This document shows, one piece after another, positions 2,411 through 12,803 of a stretch of DNA of 32,299 nucleotides. Source of the DNA: Spirogloea muscicola (lineage: Eukaryota > Streptophyta > Zygnematophyceae > Spirogloeales > Spirogloeaceae); the NCBI GenBank assembly GCA_009602725.1, contig WELB01000061.1:431566-463864 (forward strand). Reading direction: 5' to 3'. Within the stretch, counting starts at the first letter, position 1; each line of letters begins with the position of its first letter. The translations under genes and the position numbers were made by a program. The notes below the pieces were generated by a model. It ran no database searches. It was given only the letters and a program-made list of their open reading frames with translations, and was not told the DNA's origin.

Positions 2411-3325
2411 GCTATCGTAGCCCGGTGCTTATCCGAAATTCTTTGTCGTTCCTTCAAATCATGCGCCGCATTTGGCCTCAGTGGTCTGAAGATCTCCATG
2501 AAGACCAGGATTCAGCTTTGTCAAACCATTGAGTTTTACCTTACAGACTCTTCCGCCACCTCTGCCACCACTATCAGTAGCTGACTGGCTGCTGGCGGCT
2601 GCTCATTACATCTGCTTAGACCACCACTAGTTGCCGCATTTTGTACGGCAGAATTGGAAACCTTTAGCTTATAACATTGTTTGCAGGACTGATCGTCTGC
2701 TCCAACATGCAGTCTGCATGACAAGCCATCTCCTGATTCCTATGATCGCCCACTTGCTTAGCAGCAAGCAATTGCCGTGGTTAAGCCTGAGAGTGCCTCA
2801 AGTCCAGCCTCTGGACATGCGTAAAGTTCGACGGCTGTGTGCTGCTAGGCTCTGGTACTTCATTGATGTGCTTACTGACCTAGCGCCATCCTGAACAACA
2901 GTGCAGGTGTCGTTGTTTGCAGTAACCTCCACCTAATACCTTCCTCTTTAAGAAAAACTTGGACTACAAGATGAAGGGCAGAGCTGTCGAGTCTGAAGGG
3001 GCGACAGATGGTAGGAGGCGTGGCTGAGCGAACACGGGCAAGTTGCTCCAAAGGATGGGAATTCAGTCATCTTGCGCCCATAACTGCCGGCCTCAAAGCA
3101 AGGAAAAGTCTTTCTGGCCGTGAGATAAGCAGCAAGCAGCTAAAAGGCCGTCATTTGCACCTCAATCTACGTTCTATACTTGCAGGTCTTCTTCTTAAGC
3201 CCAATGGAAGCAGACCCCAATTCTAAGGTCCAGTCAGGAGTAAAGCAACCATGTCTACCTTTGTTGCAGCTTGGGCTTGCGCACGCCCTCAAGCTCGTAA
3301 CTTGTGCTGAGAATAAGTGCAAGTC
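2411..3325. other. convergent intergenic region, no gene recognised
   Basis: This 915-base stretch separates the stop codons of the plus-strand DUF3419-like gene and the minus-strand ALS-ALDH gene. It should hold both 3' UTRs. Short open frames occur on both strands, but none shows a recognisable domain, splice structure or low-complexity signature. No tRNA or strong hairpin was seen. Confidence 0.6.
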
Positions 3326-6300
3326 TTATACAATCTGACCCACATTGCGCATGAGCATGACGCGGGTCTCCGTCATGTCCTCCATGGCGTACCGCAGGCC
3401 CTCGCGGCCCAGCCCCGAGTCTTTCACGCCGCCGTATGGCTGCCACCAAGAGCAACACAAGGGCATCAAGCTCTGCAGACATGTGGAGCCCAATACGTGT
3501 TCGCAGCGCTGGCAGGATGCAGACACTGTACCGCAACTATTTGAGTCACCAAAGCTCACTTGCGAGTCAATGCGCATGCTTGGCACGTCGTTGATGCACA
3601 CGCCGCCAACATCAAGGTGCTCAAATGCATAGAATGCCTTGTTCAGGTCCCTGGTGAACACTCCAGCCTGCAGTGCTCGCCGGAGCTTGGCTATTAACAG
3701 GATAGGCCGCTGCCAAAGGGCCTCTACTCTGATTTGTTCCTTCTTGAGTACGAACTTTCCCCGCTGGAAAATATAACACATCCTTAAAGCGACCTTCAGC
3801 GTGGCCATAAGGACAAGGAGACGGTACGTAGGACTGGCCACTTTGCGACTCCCAGGATGGCACATCAATTACCTGGAGCCCAAACTTTGAGGCATTGACA
3901 TCGTCGATTGTAGTTATGAAGTCGTCATAAGGTATGAGCACCACCACGGGCCCAAATACCTCCTCGCAGTGGACCTGCGCAAATACAATGCAAGGCTGTG
4001 TCTGCATCAGCTCTTTGAGTTGGCCAGCGAGATAGGACAGTCACTCTGTGGAAAATCAGAGCACTCTCTAGTCCATTCAGGGTTGTGAAGTGTACTTCCG
4101 CACGGCTGCATGGTGACCTTGAAGAATCTGTGCACATCACTTGAAGCATGCACTACCTCCAAAGATGGACGAGTTCTCACCTCCATGTCCGGCCTCACGT
4201 TTTCCATGACGGTGGCCTTGTAGAAGACGCCGTCGCGTTTGCCACCTATCAGTACTCTGTTGTGGGGAATGGTGGCAAACCGCATGAGCTACAGATGTGT
4301 TGTCAGCAGAGACGGCAAAATGCATGAACAACAAAATGGAGTGGTAAGGCCTCCTCGTTCTGGCAAAAGTTGCTAGGGGGTGGTGGTTACCGCGCCCCAT
4401 TCTCAACTGCGTGGTCCACCCACTGCTCGATGCGCTTGGCCTCTGACTCGGCAATAATTGGACCTATGAATGTCTCCTCATCTAGTGGGTCCCCCTGAGA
4501 CAAGTGCTCTGCAATCTCAGAAGGGCCTCGTGGTGATGTACTTTTGAGTGAGAGAGTGATGTGTTGACACCATCATTTACACGACATCAAAGAGTGGCTT
4601 GCATCCACTTTCAGCAAGTGAAGAAGCAATTACTTCATCATACCTCTTTGAGCTGCGAGACTGCCTCAGTCAGCGCCCCTTTGACCGTCTCATAAAGGTT
4701 CTGTGCATAGGCAGAGCAATGTGGAGGATCTCAATGGCAGGGATATGGCTCTTTCCCGAGTGGATGTCCTCTATCACACCCACTAACGCCCTTGGCCTCA
4801 TTGCCTAATGCATCTCCAGTTTCGGCCTTCTGCTGGCAACATTGCAAGATCGTGAGATCGACAAGGCATCTTGCACGAGATACAGTCAACGTAGTGGTAA
4901 GTAGAAAGTCTATCATGCCTTTTTGATGTATATCCGCTGCACGCTGATGCACGACTGCCCACTCTGGTAGAAACCACCGTGCACAACGCGTGCAATTACA
5001 CCACCAAGGTCAGGCACTAGCTCCTGTCACACCAGCAGAACAATGCATAAGCACGTTAATTTAATGACAGCAGAAAGCAAGACTAATTACCTGCTGATAT
5101 CAAGGCAATATGGGTCTGAGCCTTTGTAAGAAGTCTTCTGCTATGTAGTGTTGCTTGGAATTTTACTCATTGCTGAGGATGGCTAAAGCGTAGCAGAGTA
5201 GGAAGCAATGCTCACGTCAACAATGCAGGCAGCATTTCCGCCCAGCTCTAGCACCACTTTCTTCTTTCCAGCTCTAGCCTTCATAGCCCACCCAACCTGT
5301 TGCGGACGAGCCAAATCAAGCTGTTAGGTAAGTCCACTTCAGGTGAATATCAGCACAGAACTGGGCACTGAGTCTCTCCGGGGGGCATTGCTAAAACCTG
5401 GGCAGCAGTACAGCCAGGGCGATGCAAGTGCAGAGGAGAGAACAGCGCAGCTGATGAGAGACGGAACACACAGATGGGGACCCCGTGAAGGAGAGGAGCT
5501 TGAATCTGTCGTCCGTTGTGAAGAGATCAGCTCCATCTCTGGCGCATGGGAGGATGGAGAATGCTCCTTCCGGCAGGTTCGCACGTGACAGGATCTCTCC
5601 AAGAAGAAGAGCCCCGATGGGAGTACGGCTGCAAGCCAGCGGCAAAGCGACAAAGCGGCAAAGAGTTCAATTCAAGATCTCACAGAAGTTGGCATTCAGC
5701 TGATGGTCAATGGGTCACTGTGGTCAAGCCCCAAGCCTGCATGAAGGTGGCAGTCCACACCTAGCAGGCTTCATCACAAATGGGCAGCCGACAGCTAGCG
5801 CCGGGGCAATCTTGTGAGCAGCCTGAACAATAGAAATCAGGAGTCAGAGCATTGCATCTCAGTGTGACAGTTTCACAATGTAGCAATTCTAATTGCCTGC
5901 AATTAACTAATTTTTTAGCTATTGTTTTCAATCAACTCAATGCCACAAGAGACAGGAGGATCCTTGCAGCTCGCTCAACGAAGGGCACAAGGGATTTACC
6001 AGATTGAGGGGGAAGTTGAATGGGCTGACCATGCTAATGGGACCTATCGGGAACTTCCGCACCTGTCAGCAGTATGTGCAGGGCTCCAGCCAATCATGCA
6101 ACCAGCAACTAGGATGCAATTCATGGCACAATTACCAGGTCTGACATGATCGCACCATGTCCTCAATCACACAACCTGGAAGCCGTGTGCTTACTTCTGC
6201 ATACAGTAAGGCATGCACCAAAGAAGGCAGCTTACCAGGGACTGGTACCCTTTGGCTCTCTCTGAAATGTCTATGGGGGCATACTCGCCATACCTTCCCT

Positions 6301-7259
6301 CCGCACAAGCAGGAGTATCAGAAGACTCATACATAGAATCTCCGGGATGCAGCGAGTAGGTCAGCATGTCACAGAAGTATGCCTATTTGCTAGCGGTGAG
6401 GAGACAGCTTGCATGCAGAATATTCACCTTGGGCCTTTACTGGACATAACTTGGACAGGGCAGGGCTAATCTGCAGTGATTAAGCTAGGTTAGCTGGACT
6501 ATATCAATGGCCACGGGCAACACGGACTGGTGCTTGCTTACATACGGACGCTCTCCTCTGCAGCAATCTGGAAGGTGTCAATGAGCCTCTGCACCTCTCC
6601 TCGTGAGTCCCTATTAATCATAAATGAAGTGCACTCACAATTGTTAGCACATCTATCATTTGGTGGATCTGTAACGCCCACTTTGATGGTCCACTCTTTC
6701 TAGTAAGGCTTTAAGCAATCTTCAGATAACGAGCACCAGTATCTCGAAGCGTCATCCCAATAGAACCTGCTGAGAGCAAGGCCGGTAAGGGCAGTGGGCT
6801 ACCTGATGGGCTTTCCAGCCTCCATGCAGAGGGCCTTGGCAAACTCCTCCGACCTCGCCTTCACCTCCCTCACAACCATCTCACAGACCGCCTTGCGCTC
6901 GTAGCTGGCCATGGCTGCCATTGCAGGCGCAGCCCGCTCTGCCGCTGCAATGGCCACCTCAATGTCCGCTGCATGCGCCAGGGCGCACCTCGCGCCCACC
7001 TTGCCTGTTCCAATGGATATGGATGCTCATGGGTGTGGCTACATGAAGCAGAAAAGCTTACACGAATTTTACCTCTAGTAGCAAAGATAACACACAGAAG
7101 AAGTGAAGCTGTGAACGTATGGGAGAAGACCAAGAGCACATGTGATACACCTCAGCTAGCTTGTCTTGAGCCTGAGTGTGACAAAGTAGGTACTTTTAGA
7201 GCATAACAGAGAGGAAAGACATAGCACTGACTCACCCGTGTACTTGTTCGTGACCTCCA
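3326..7259 (-). other. aldehyde dehydrogenase module, exons 16 (end) to 30 (residues ~661-1137)
   Basis: After exon 16 the exons are 6803-7004, 6542-6610, 6236-6293, 6000-6062, 5761-5822, 5472-5628, 5216-5296, 4919-5023, 4644-4700, 4391-4494, 4181-4256, 3873-3974, 3560-3667 and 3326-3439. The full catalytic set is present: the oxyanion Asn in SPFNFPLN (~811), the general base Glu in LELGG (~906), and the nucleophile Cys in FYQSGQSC (~941), at normal spacings. EEVFGPV and PYGGVKDSGLGREG, the usual C-terminal ALDH blocks, are also intact. The sequence resembles the ALDH21/RNP123-like and phosphonoacetaldehyde/succinic-semialdehyde type of bacterial and moss enzymes. That placement is from memory and moderate. 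No catalytic residue is lost. Confidence 0.93.
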
Positions 7260-10200
7260 GGTCTGTGTTGGGCTGCTTGGCGACGTTAGCGATGTAGAAC
7301 GGGTATGTGGTGACCTCCGACTCAGAGGTGCTCGCTTCTGCCCTTGGCGGAGCTGCACTGTGGCCCACAGAGGCCCCTTCCTTGCTTGCAGATTGCAGCA
7401 TGCCAAACTCCGCCGAGGACAACTTGACTGGCGCTTCGGCCTTAGCGGGGCCAGTGTTGTCTGTCAGTGAAGGGGCCCCACCAGGGTGGGGGACGTCCGC
7501 AGACTTCTCGCCCGTGTTGATGTCCGCCTCGTCGTCCTTACGCGTCGGGACGGAGGTGAGCGTCGAGCCGCAAATGGCTGGGACAGCTGCCACCTCTTTG
7601 AGCTTACCGCTGAGGACCTGCACATGACACCGCCGGTCAGCAGCCATGATAAGACATGCTGTGAAGGTTTCACCAAAGAGATCAAGTCAGTGATAGTGAT
7701 AACACGTGTAATTATGGCCATTCTTTATATGGGGCAGCCAGATTGCAAGGGCAGCCAGATTGATGACTTGATCTCACGTTAGCCTGTATGTGGTCTTTGC
7801 GGACGAGCCCAGGCAGCTCCTTGTCAAGCACCTCATTGTCCTTAGTGTAGTCAACCGGGACCTGTTTGCAGCAGCTCAGCGCTGAGCTTAAGCAGACATT
7901 CATATGCAGGCAGGCACAGTACACAGCAAGAGCAGCACATAACATAAAAGACGGCAATAGACGAGCCAAGTCCGAGAGCGACCTCTATGAGCTTGACGCC
8001 AGGTAAGACGTCGAGGCACTGGTGCAGGATCTCGAGGAACTCGTCCGCCTTGGTCACGCGGAAGCCCTTGGCTCCGTAGCTGGTGGCTCACAGCGCCCTC
8101 GCCATAGTCAGACACCGAAAACAGCCGGCCAGCAGGACATTTTTCGAGGTCTTGTATATCAATCATGTCGGTTGCTATTCCTGGGTGAGGTGTGGAGATA
8201 GAGGCCCACCTGTTGGCATACGCGACAAAGTCGGGGTTGTCCAGTTCCAAACCGAATCTACCAATCACCATTCCACCAATGCAAGGAGAGGGCAGTCAGC
8301 TCACAAAGTTCCATGGCAGGCTGACTAGGGGAACTATTCGAGTGGTCGAGGACGCCATGTTGATATATTTAAGTATGGCCCGAAAAGAAGGTCATGCCAA
8401 TCTTCACATGGACCCGGCTTAGCCGGCCGCGCTGCGCCCCACAAGGGCACAATTATATCCAAGTTTGAAGGGGGCCGCACTTGCTGAACCCCGCCGCATG
8501 CTGCTTCCACTTGATCATGCCGTAGCCATTGTCGTTGATGACAATTACAGTCATGTTGAGCTTGATCCTGACCGCAGTCTCCAGCTCCTGTTAACCAGGG
8601 GTAAATGTCAGAAATCACAAATAAGGTGACATAAGCTAGTTTTGGACAAGAAATTTGTGACCACGTGAATTGGAAACATGACTACTCGAAGAACAGCAGT
8701 CAAATAGAATGGTCATATCATTATTCTTCTGTGGCTGTCCCTGGCTCCACCATCCTTCCACATTCTGAAACTTGAGGAAGCTTACAAGGCCCTTCGAAGA
8801 AGCTTACGCGGCTTTGGCCTCGTACGATGCATGCGCACCTGCGAATTCATCATGAAACCTCCGTCGCCGCATATAGCCACCACCTTTTTCTCTGGGTAGA
8901 GCAGCGAGACAGCCATTGCCGAGGGCAGACCGGCGCCCATTGTGGCGAGAGCATTGTCAAGCAGAAGAGTGTTTGGTTGATACGCCTGTCAAGCACCTCC
9001 TTGCTTCCTCAGTACGGTGGATCAAGTCTTGAAGCCCATAAAGTTTAGTGACCAGCAGGGTTACTATAGAAGGCATTACAGAAACTTGAGACATCCTAAG
9101 TCAAAACCTGTCTCCTCTTCGTCAAGCTCTTCTGTAGGTACCATGTGGAGCGAGCAGCACTGATCCAGAAGCCTTGTGTTTCATATCGCACCAACCTTGT
9201 AGCAGCGTGCAAAGTAGATTTTGTACATGCCTGCGTTAGAGAGAGCAAGATGAAAGGGAGGATCAAGCAAAGACCAGCCTGCTGCCTGCTCCAGCGACAA
9301 GGATCTCTAGTAGTTCCTGATAAAGACAACATGACACATGCAGTGCTCAAAGGACAAAACCCACTGGTATAGAATAAGCCAGCAAGCCGTTGCTGCTCTT
9401 AGAGTCACACACCGAGAGAAGGAGAGGTAACACCAGCTTACCGTTGTCCAGACAGGCGACACCGTCATCTGGGAGTGCTCTCCTGCGCAGATTGATGTGG
9501 TGGAAACAATCAGCACATGCGTGTTGTCTTCACGACCAACGTGGACGTGGACTCGCAGTAGGACCAGGAAATACAGTGGTGAGTCCAAAGCTAGGTAAGT
9601 CAAGATACAATGCTGTGAAGATAAGCACCTCACGTCGGCCACAACACGCTGTGGGGAGAGGGGGAAGGCCGGATTGTCAACGTTTTTGCGAAGCGAGTCC
9701 TCAAAGTCCTTCTTCACCTGCGCATTGTCTCAGAAAAGGTAACCTTCAGAGGCTCAAGGTTGAAAGCTAAACGTTTAGCTGTATATGGAGTCTGAGACTG
9801 AACTTTGAAACCTGCACCCAGAATCTTAGCAGCACAACAATGCAAGGCTGTCCTGGGAAAAGGGGGAGGCAGGCAGCAGCTTGACAACAATTCCAGAACT
9901 CTATTAACTGGCATAGGATGTCCAGGTCCACTCACGCCCATCATGAACGAATGGTCCCAGTGGCTCTGGGGCTCCAGGCGATTTGTAAGCTGCCAGACGG
10001 CATTGGCGATGTCGCCAACAACCTCCAGCTGCGGGAAGTAGACGTTGTCTAACTTCGCGCTGTAGAAGTTCACGTGGATCACCATCGGCGGCTCGTTGTG
10101 CCTGAAGATCCCATCAAATCACAATGGTGGTCGTCACAAGATGAACTGGAAGACAACACAACATCTTCCTATATATTCTCAGGCAATTAGCTCCTAGTGG

Positions 10201-12099
10201 ACCTCCTTCCTGCAGGCTACACATTGAGCGTTCGGTGCACGCCACACTACACTCACGAAATTAGCAACCTCCTCACTCCCAGAGGGAGGTGTGCTGGTTT
10301 GAGAGGGTGGCCATTGCCTCATAATGAAGGGCGGCTTCTCGACGACGTCGTGGCCAATGTTGATGATGAGATCCGCGGTCTCGCAGCACAGGTGCGGGAA
10401 GTCGTTGGCGGACAGCGCGCAGCAGCCAAGGCACAGCGGGTGCGAATCTGCACACGCTCATTTGGTGCCGCCCACAAGGACCCTTCAGCTCACATACTCG
10501 GAACTCTTGGTCTTTGTGCACGCTGCAGGATCGCGGGCTTTCTTGATGCGTGAGTCGGACGTGGCAGCTTATGTGGGACAGAGAAGTGGTCAGCGAGGCA
10601 TCACCTGGGACGACGCCCTTGCCCATCTGCGTCGTGACAAAGGGAACGCCAAGCTTGTCCACGAACTGCCTCAGCCTGCCACCATCAGCACCCACCGCAG
10701 CAAAAGTGAGCGCCCATTTCGTGACAGCCTTAAGGCCACGCGCGCGTCTCACTCGGGCACTGCTTAGTGTCCAGCTATAAGCAGCAAGAAGCTTAATATT
10801 ATCGTAGAGTGGGCACACCATACCCCCATGAAAAATACTTGAAGGTGAGTACTACTTGTTAGCAATTTTACTGTGAGCTTATTACCTCGTAACCTGCTTT
10901 GACAGTGACCTTTCATCGATGCAGATTATGCAAGCTTGAGCTTGGCTGAGGAGCCGACGGAAGCCTTAGAGCTTAAGCTGCAGTACAGCTGTAGCAACAT
11001 ACATCTTCTGGGTGAGTTTGCGGTTGGCGCCAGCGCCAATGAGGAGCAGCGGGCGCTGGGCAGCCTCAATCATCGCGACAGCCTTAGCAATGGCCTTCTC
11101 CTCGCCGACGGGCCGCCGAACCTGGTGCACCGGAAAGAGCTCGGCGTCGGTGAGAGTGCTTGCAATGTCCTCTGGGAGCTCCAGGTGCACCGCCCCGGGC
11201 CGCTCCTCCATGGACAGCCGCACCGCCTCTCGTACGAGCGACGGCACCAGGTCGCCGTCAGCAATCTGCCGCGTATACTGCAGCAGGAGAAGCAGGCCGG
11301 TCGCCGGCTGTGATTCAGGCCCACTGTCACTCATGCAAATCCAAGTTCTCTGAGGTGCACAAGTGGAAGATGCAAATAGCTTGTTTGTCTAGACATTGTA
11401 GATTGAACACTAACTGCGCGTCAGACGTAGTTAAGAGGGCTTTGGCACCACGCACCTTGGTGATGGGTCGCAGATTCTCAACAATGTCTACGATCTGAAA
11501 TGACCCCTGCTTGCTCTTCCGTATCGGCTTCTGACCTGTAATCATCATCTGCGCTCGTCCCTCCAGCCGAAATCTAGTCAGGTGTCAGAGCGACGAGGAG
11601 AGCCCTCGCCGCACTGATGCAATGTGGGCGTCTCAGCTTGGCGCGGCAGCCAGCAAGGTGCTCGAGTTAAGGCGGGCGGCCGACCATGGGGAAGCCGGCA
11701 AGCTGAGCATAAGCAGCGGCCGTCGTGAAGTTGGTCGCGCCAGGTCCGAGAGTGGAGAGGCAGACGCCACATTGGCCTGTCAGGCGGCCGACAGTAGCGG
11801 CCATGAAGCCCGCCGCCTGCTCGTGCCGCGTCACAACCAGCTTGATGGTCGAGCTCTGCAGCGAGTCTAGAAGGTCCATGTTCTCCTCGCCGGGGATGCC
11901 GAAAATGTACCTGCACCATTGCATTCACGCGGCATGGAGCAGCTCAGCATGCCGCCTGCAAAACTCTGAGCAGCAGGCAATTCTGGGCAACGAGAGTGGC
12001 GAGCAGGAGCAGTGTGAGCACGCCCCCGACTCACTCGATTCGCTCGTTCTCTAGGGCCTTGACGAACACGTCCGACGTCTTGCGCTTATCGCCACCCAT
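3326..12099 (-). CDS. fused acetolactate-synthase-like TPP enzyme + aldehyde dehydrogenase (30 exons, 1137 aa)
   Basis: This is a predicted bifunctional enzyme. Residues 1-558 form a complete ALS/pyruvate-oxidase-type thiamine-diphosphate enzyme. Residues 559-661 are a low-complexity linker. Residues ~661-1137 form a complete NAD(P)-dependent aldehyde dehydrogenase. Thirty exons join in consistent phase: 3414 coding nt from ATG at 12099 to TAA at 3326-3328, with no internal stop. Twenty-eight introns are GT-AG and two appear to be GC-AG. The start MGGDKRKTSDVF aligns with bacterial ALS N-termini, so no transit peptide is visible and a cytosolic location is inferred; an upstream leader exon cannot be excluded. 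The expected chemistry is a 2-oxo acid to an aldehyde by decarboxylation, then to a carboxylic acid with NAD(P)H. A 2-oxoglutarate to succinate route is the best-precedented guess. Two adjacent genes are the alternative, but the inter-module gap is one 160-base intron. Confidence 0.8.
7236..7617 (-). other. exon 16: inter-domain linker and start of the ALDH module
   Basis: This single 382-nt exon begins in phase 0 directly after the ALS C-terminal exon. It encodes about 103 residues rich in Ala, Ser, Pro, Glu and Thr. It then enters the ALDH N-terminal signature YPFYIANV...LEVTNKYTG. The upstream intron (7618-7777) has a GTGAGA donor and a TGTGCAG acceptor. If that intron were retained, translation would stop at TAA 7712-7714, 22 residues after the ALS exon. 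An ATG at 7645-7647 lies in frame with the linker, so an independent ALDH could in principle start there. The low-complexity composition suits a flexible tether. Confidence 0.75.
7778..12099 (-). other. ALS-like TPP-enzyme module, exons 1-15 (residues 1-558)
   Basis: Exons, from high to low coordinate: 12035-12099, 11685-11910, 11456-11548, 11003-11277, 10605-10675, 10318-10447, 9936-10101, 9629-9717, 9442-9482, 9196-9230, 8839-8985, 8481-8587, 8210-8257, 7983-8079, 7778-7861. Visible motifs are YIFGIPGEEN (residues 23-32); RHEQ with the Glu that activates TPP at about residue 52; LSTLGPGATN; ITGQKPIRKSKQG; RPGAVHLELPEDIA; QMGKGVV; IGHDVVEKPPF; VYFPQLEVVGDIANAVW; LDNALATMGAG; and the TPP/Mg motif GDGG (437-440) paired with INDN (~463-466). 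The module ends VPVDYTKDNEVLDKELPGLV, the usual ALS C-terminus. Its 558 residues equal a full-length family member. The ITGQKPI(R/K)KSKQG subtype is bacterial in flavour and unlike plastid IlvB-type acetolactate synthase; I do not recognise an acetolactate-specific signature. Confidence 0.92.
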
Positions 12100-12803
12100 G
12101 GCTGCGTGCTGCCCACAGCTAGATGTGGTCGGATGAATTGTGTTCCAGGAGGGTGGGAGAGCGAGCTGGGGCCTGGCTGCCTGAAGATGGCGGAGCGCTC
12201 TGTGCAAGAGCAGAGGTGAGGGAGAGGAGGGAGACCAAATCAGGTGCGGGCAGCTGCGCGGGCTACTTGTCCACTCCGAGTGACGGGCAAAGCATTGCTG
12301 CTTCTGGAGAGGGGCTGGGAAGCAGACGAGGGGGCGAGCGAGGTCTACGGAGCAAGACCTGCCTGCTCAGCCAGCGTAAGGCAATCAGGATCCCGGCGAG
12401 CTGCTGTAGGTATTACTTCACCAAGTGCAACCCATGTGATCAAAAGAAAATTGTAATGAGAGAGGAACACTGTTACCTCCTGCTGGGGGCGGATGGCCCT
12501 CTTCAGGCCCCGCAGTCGCTGCTTAGCTCGTAATTTGGCCCCTTCGAACCTTGTCAATTCTTTTCGGGCTGGCTTCTCACAGCCCTTGCCCCCATTGGGA
12601 GAGCCACTTCTTCGATGGGGGGGGCAGGAAGCTCGGAAGGAAGCCGGCGGATTGCTGGCTGGCGGCGCCGGGGGACGGGCTGTACAGGGCGAGGGAGAAG
12701 AAGGAGAGGGGCTGGACAGGGCTTTGGGCGTGTGGCGGGGAGGGAGGGCAGCGCGCGGGGGCGCAGCGGTAGAGGGGGAGGTCGGGGTCAGGGTGCCGGG
12801 CGC

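Follow-up and report, generated by a model that had tools for sequence, protein, structure and literature searches.

A predicted fusion of a thiamine-pyrophosphate-dependent enzyme with an ALDH21-like aldehyde dehydrogenase in the green alga Spirogloea muscicola, a candidate one-polypeptide 2-oxoglutarate bypass

Within the 153-Mb genome assembly of the green alga Spirogloea muscicola, we analyzed a 32,299-nucleotide stretch of contig WELB01000061.1 (C61:431566-463864; hereafter the window, whose numbering is used below unless another contig is named) and found a minus-strand gene at 12099-3326 in which a thiamine pyrophosphate (TPP)-dependent enzyme and an aldehyde dehydrogenase (ALDH) share one reading frame. 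The single fused gene is well supported by the sequence, and it would presumably give rise to a single transcript. Its product is somewhat likely to be bifunctional, combining a 2-oxoglutarate decarboxylase with a succinic-semialdehyde dehydrogenase and acting in the cytosol as a one-polypeptide counterpart of the ogdA-ssaD bypass. As proposed here, one nuclear gene would yield a protein of about 123 kDa whose N-terminal TPP-dependent half, of the PRK08322 family, would convert 2-oxoglutarate to succinic semialdehyde and CO2, with a flexible linker tying it to an ALDH21-type, NADP+-dependent half that would oxidize succinic semialdehyde to succinate; the reactive aldehyde would thereby be handed over locally between the halves. 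No published report of such a fusion was found in the open-licence literature, and one may exist elsewhere.

The gene model came from a spliced alignment in which bacterial relatives and the three copies of the gene in the assembly (on C61, C36 and C3) served as guides, followed by two hand corrections. It comprises 30 exons that extend through the stop codon and encode 1137 residues in a single reading frame, matching the counts and the unbroken phase claimed in a preliminary description of this DNA. In the first correction, an apparent 48-base GC-AG intron within exon 16 was treated as coding because it is open and in frame; in the second, a spurious 5-base final exon was replaced by continuous reading to the stop at 3326. 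An unguided first-pass model also gave 1137 residues, with 31 exons and several boundaries placed differently. The 29 introns include 27 of the GT-AG type and two of the GC-AG type, the latter lying after exon 6 (10102..10317) and after exon 24 (4701..4918), each with a GC donor kept in all three copies. The TPP-enzyme half (residues 1-558) occupies exons 1-15 (7778..12099), starting in exon 1 (12035..12099) with the start codon at 12099-12097, and carries the catalytic E52, the GDG aspartate D438, D465, and the lysines K389 and K474. Exon 16 (7236..7617) encodes a 94-residue linker (559-652), 74% of which is A, P, E, S, T, G, D, K or Q, together with the start of the ALDH half; this exon is 12 bases longer, in frame, in C36. 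The remainder of the ALDH21-like half is spread over exons 17-30 (3326..7004), ends with a stop codon at 3328-3326, and contains N811, E906 and C941, which we take to be its catalytic residues. Both enzymes had been proposed to be complete and catalytically intact; Pfam matches show complete domains, TPP_enzyme_N at residues 7-120, M at 191-325, C at 384-530 and Aldedh at 674-1127, all above cut-off.

The junction between the halves is a 160-base GT-AG intron (7618..7777) that is phase 0 on both sides, where it had been placed before, and its terminal dinucleotides are kept in three of three copies. Reading on from exon 15 into this intron meets a stop in every copy, whereas reading back from exon 16 reaches an in-frame ATG before the first stop, again in every copy, so that each holds a codon that could start a separate ALDH. 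This weighs against a fusion and is what favors the view that the model wrongly merged two neighboring genes, of which the second would begin at an ATG within 7777-7618. The ATG is the same in C61 and C3, where it would add 10 residues, but the added peptide is not conserved, since C36 has a different ATG followed by other residues because a one-base deletion shifts the frame. Two genes would moreover leave only about 65 bases from stop to start in C61, and they would not call for the retained GT and AG or for the matching frames on either side of the intron; the gene order of bacterial relatives, described below, accounts for a fusion. We therefore regard two separate genes as highly improbable. 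The pentamer TGTAA, the poly-A signal of green algae, is absent from the junction intron in all three copies, but this says little because TGTAA occurs four to seven times within the gene and, in the stretch read downstream, only in C36 and C3.

Comparison of the three copies gives further evidence for a single constrained frame. In both C36 and C3, all 30 exons are free of frameshifts and internal stops and each of the 29 introns retains its terminal dinucleotides, with protein identity to C61 of 1109 of 1141 aligned positions for C36 and 1113 of 1137 for C3. Chance assembly of exons can be dismissed, as 30 of 30 are in frame in three diverged copies. Between pairs of copies, synonymous divergence (dS) is 0.11-0.18 and nonsynonymous divergence (dN) 0.006-0.04, while mean intron identity of C61 is 0.86 to C36 and 0.83 to C3. 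The dN/dS ratio is 0.04-0.05 for the TPP half, 0.05-0.10 for the ALDH half and 0.19-0.23 for the linker, which, being in frame and under weaker constraint, behaves as an inter-domain linker would. The earlier proposal of one fused gene is thus backed by gene structure, three-copy conservation, linker constraint and bacterial gene order. A further contig, C315, repeats a 4042-base part of C36 (100% identical) and is apparently an assembly duplicate. When the ALDH half was searched exon by exon against its own genome, strong matches were confined to the three fused loci, the C315 duplicate and a last-exon fragment on C175, and no free-standing ALDH21 gene was found with this query. The C175 fragment (C175:123872-124775) is a partial duplicate, an isolated copy of the last exon and downstream region (window 2553-3445) at 83% identity. 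Several gene families have three copies, each on its own contig (TPP enzymes, 2-oxoglutarate dehydrogenase E1 and succinic-semialdehyde-dehydrogenase-like ALDHs), which suggests a triplicated or triploid assembly.

Turning to the chemistry of the TPP half, the preliminary description had called it acetolactate synthase (ALS)-like, with an ALDH following. The family type stood, as the half scores 832 bits over residues 6-547 against NCBIfam NF006187 (PRK08322; curated cut-off 509), but it falls below the cut-offs of true acetolactate synthases, both AlsS (TIGR02418, 393 against 551) and the biosynthetic enzyme (TIGR00118, 346 against 538). Acetolactate synthase makes no aldehyde. For that reason, the further claim that the two enzymes stand in the order of successive reactions is plausible only for a TPP half that decarboxylates a 2-oxoacid. 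Could the TPP half nevertheless be a genuine acetolactate synthase, with the ALDH tethered for another reason such as a shared oligomer or regulation? The NCBIfam equivalog is named 'acetolactate synthase large subunit', and PDB 13bb, 44% identical to this half, is likewise called acetolactate synthase. That structure, however, has M rather than K at the position of K389 (the second lysine is present), and an enzyme releasing no aldehyde would leave the bacterial pairing with an ALDH unexplained. With the shortfall against both cut-offs, we judge a genuine acetolactate synthase very unlikely.

For a candidate substrate, we compared the TPP half with the 2-oxoglutarate decarboxylase of Microcystis, for which the available text of PMC10418658 reports docking that places K386 and K471 on the substrate. 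Residues were matched to the alga through the published numbering, by offset and not by alignment. On this basis nine positions in that text agree, given as Microcystis and then alga: E50 and E52, K386 and K389, A408 and A411, M410 and M413, D435 and D438, D462 and D465, Y465 and Y468, K471 and K474, and Y531 and Y535. In the gene, Y388 and K389 are carried by exon 10 (9196..9230), and D465, Y468 and K474 by exon 12 (8481..8587). The matches at the catalytic glutamate E52, the GDG aspartate D438, the second aspartate D465 and M413 (the methionine under the cofactor, thiamine diphosphate or ThDP) are mostly general features of ThDP enzymes. Among the substrate contacts described in the same source (Q254, V382, K386, A408, L467 and K471), the offset pairs K389, A411 and K474 with identical residues, and three positions differ, L467 being M470, V382 being N385, and Q254 having no glutamine at 256-258. 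Outside this set, H385 corresponds to Y388 and A384 to M387.

The two lysines set the family apart from the other TPP enzymes compared. All 82 bacterial relatives, 80 from genome loci and two from plasmids, carry both K389 and K474. Fifteen other TPP enzymes, drawn from three bacterial genomes, include none with an equivalent of K389 and one with an equivalent of K474. The spacing from the catalytic glutamate to the GDG aspartate is 385 in the Microcystis enzyme, 385 in 56 of 83 family rows and 386 in the alga; none of the 15 other enzymes has 385, though three fall at 384-386. Judged from sequence, K389 and K474 favor a substrate with a second carboxylate, for which 2-oxoglutarate is a candidate and not the proven case.

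Several points weigh against 2-oxoglutarate: the name of the NCBIfam family, the offset-based matching, the differences at V382, H385 and Q254, and the nature of the lysine contacts, which come from docking to a predicted model, neither lysine being among the mutants described in the available text of PMC10418658. The family name and the residues that are not kept fit a real fusion whose TPP half acts on a different 2-oxoacid, whether pyruvate or one that is longer or dicarboxylic, and passes another aldehyde to the ALDH half, as does the pairing of the TPP gene with a different ALDH in some bacteria. Set against this are the two lysines, which could hold a distal carboxylate and are invariant in all 82 relatives and rare in the 15 other TPP enzymes, and the description of moss ALDH21, the closest solved relative of the ALDH half, as a succinic-semialdehyde dehydrogenase in the available part of a review (PMC7823795). 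Another 2-oxoacid is accordingly a rather unlikely substrate.

For the ALDH half, moss ALDH21 (5mz5) is the best solved relative at 653 bits, followed by the bacterial ALDHs 5kf0, 5jry and 5j6b. Identity to the moss enzyme is 60% over 487 residues, with the catalytic residues kept; the moss protein is a separate chain of 515 residues, whereas in the alga the homologous sequence forms the C-terminal half of the fusion. Moss R121, R457 and R228, which we presume to be substrate or NADP+ ligands, have matching arginines in the ALDH half, and we treat these as a lead only. By the ALDH nomenclature as it appears in the portion of PMC3280228 available, more than 40% identity to a family member assigns a sequence to that family, and the sequence of the ALDH half thereby places it in ALDH21. 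The enzyme itself is described in the available part of the review as a cytosolic, NADP+-dependent succinic-semialdehyde dehydrogenase (PMC7823795). In a tree of ALDHs, 46 bacterial ALDH21-like rows fall on one side of a branch with SH-aLRT support of 100, and with a single plant row the order of moss, alga and bacteria is not settled.

Many bacterial genomes carry the two enzymes as neighbors, a pairing that, like the ALDH21 identity, was absent from the preliminary description. From 551 loci found with the TPP half, the best 80 were taken, and an ALDH was counted if it exceeded 250 bits and lay downstream on the same strand. Such an ALDH was present at 56 of these 80 loci; its start is no more than 0.5 kb from where the TPP match ends in 55 of them and 1.1 kb away in the other. 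ALDH21-like enzymes with 57-63% identity to the ALDH half of the alga account for 45 of the 56. These PRK08322 and ALDH21-like pairs, from Burkholderiaceae, Alteromonadaceae, Planctomycetota and others, have the order and strand seen in the alga, with 58-63% identity in the TPP half; they are separate genes in all 45 loci, in contrast to the fused gene of the alga, and no fusion was found at any of the 56. Searching plasmids with the fusion (tblastn) matched 3802 records, 148 of them with one place covering at least 80% of the query. Annotation is available for 30 of the 40 plasmid rows listed: 29 pair 'acetolactate synthase large subunit' with 'aldehyde dehydrogenase family protein', whereas one has gabD.

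The bacterial evidence also has its counterweights. Eleven of the 56 pairs have another type of ALDH, at 33-40% identity, and 24 of the 80 loci lack an ALDH above 250 bits, although four of these have no more than 1.3 kb left after the TPP gene and four others have a weaker ALDH match (168-204 bits). Identity over the whole fusion reaches 59% in just the first four of the 40 listed plasmid rows, which are from Burkholderia, the others lying at 43-48%. Pairing of the two genes in bacteria is thus common and not universal. Surrounding genes mostly differ between bacterial families, judging from the 14 largest of the clusters formed by 209 neighboring frames, and these 14 clusters gave no clear hint of a pathway; one of the clusters, found at four loci of Planctomycetota and Verrucomicrobiota, is presumably pyridine-nucleotide-disulphide-oxidoreductase-like, to go by its motif. 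When a pair persists while its surroundings change, and occurs elsewhere as a fusion, this is a classical sign that the steps are linked. On a plasmid of Leisingera aquaemixtae, a gene of the FMN-binding glutamate synthase family (4422-5930 in the numbering of that locus) lies directly upstream of the pair, a possible link to 2-oxoglutarate; it was not seen in the other annotated plasmid loci examined.

This gene order suggests that the fusion derives from a two-gene module kept as same-order neighbors in many bacteria, and a bacterial pair was likely transferred and then fused, both events being undated. In a tree of TPP enzymes, the algal branch is long, and so is that of its neighbor, a Magasanikbacteria row, the grouping having support of 88 and being flagged as a possible artefact; because this neighbor is unreliable, no donor can be named. 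Viral contigs contain nine relatives of the TPP half, the closest at 58%, and no ALDH half was found in the stretch of that closest contig that was examined. The TPP enzymes of the eight other viral contigs are 24-36% identical to the query. Moss ALDH21 might, as a guess, be the remaining half of the same module.

The proposed reactions have precedents. Cyanobacteria decarboxylate 2-oxoglutarate with a TPP enzyme and oxidize succinic semialdehyde with the enzyme encoded beside it, ogdA and ssaD forming an operon in Synechococcus 7002 (A2770-A2771), according to the available part of PMC5160925; in that of PMC4224347, ogdA is called an acetolactate synthase gene and groups with acetolactate synthase. 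The alga would carry out the same presumed reactions with one protein instead of two, the likeness being drawn through these literature descriptions and a presumed substrate. Similarly, Euglena gracilis is a eukaryotic alga with a 2-oxoglutarate decarboxylase and a succinic-semialdehyde dehydrogenase for the same two steps (PMC6630311, available part), but its enzymes are mitochondrial and its TPP enzyme belongs to a different lineage (PMC4224347, available part). While 2-oxoglutarate dehydrogenase was not detected in Euglena by the account available in PMC6630311, S. muscicola keeps E1 exons of this enzyme.

These E1 exons were matched in three copies (C97, C134 and C136) as single exons, none of which reaches the family cut-off. 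Their retention counts against any need for a bypass to complete the cycle, and replacement of a lost 2-oxoglutarate dehydrogenase can be set aside. Fragments resembling succinic-semialdehyde dehydrogenase also persist on C33, C38 and C147, and with both retained the fusion looks like an additional route and not a substitute. A second, weaker set of E1-like fragments lies on C75, C77 and C156, perhaps from a DHTKD1-like gene. No targeting peptide was found on the gene model, for which reason the cytosol is our default guess and probably the compartment. The 80 codons upstream of exon 1 contain no in-frame ATG in any copy; as they also lack an in-frame stop, an unseen upstream exon is possible. 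The fusion would then act in the cytosol beside the mitochondrial 2-oxoglutarate dehydrogenase, yielding NADPH and succinate.

Among other features of the window, a 117-base repeat (12497-12613) lies about 400 bases upstream of the C61 start codon and has more than 40 listed near-identical copies in the genome (95-100%). C36 provides an empty site for this repeat, with a GATGG there that is doubled around the insert in C61, and the repeat is likely a short non-autonomous mobile element. ARAGORN found no tRNA in the window, which opens with a CT microsatellite of about 90 bases (29-124). Across the genome, chlorophyll a/b-binding domain matches occur at 68 places, marking a photosynthetic eukaryote.

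Taken as a whole, the fullest form of the proposal is a tentative one. In it, a bacterial two-gene module would have fused in a green alga, succinic semialdehyde would pass between the two active sites, and the bypass would generate NADPH in the cytosol while 2-oxoglutarate dehydrogenase stays intact; moss ALDH21 would be what survives of the same module. If true, a Krebs-cycle bypass of cyanobacterial type would be present, in fused form, in a green alga, and the moss enzyme ALDH21, known to be induced by stress, would gain a likely metabolic partner and bacterial counterparts. The fusion would also offer a ready-made enzyme for succinate or other four-carbon chemistry, and the bacterial family now labeled only 'acetolactate synthase large subunit' would have a clear candidate function.

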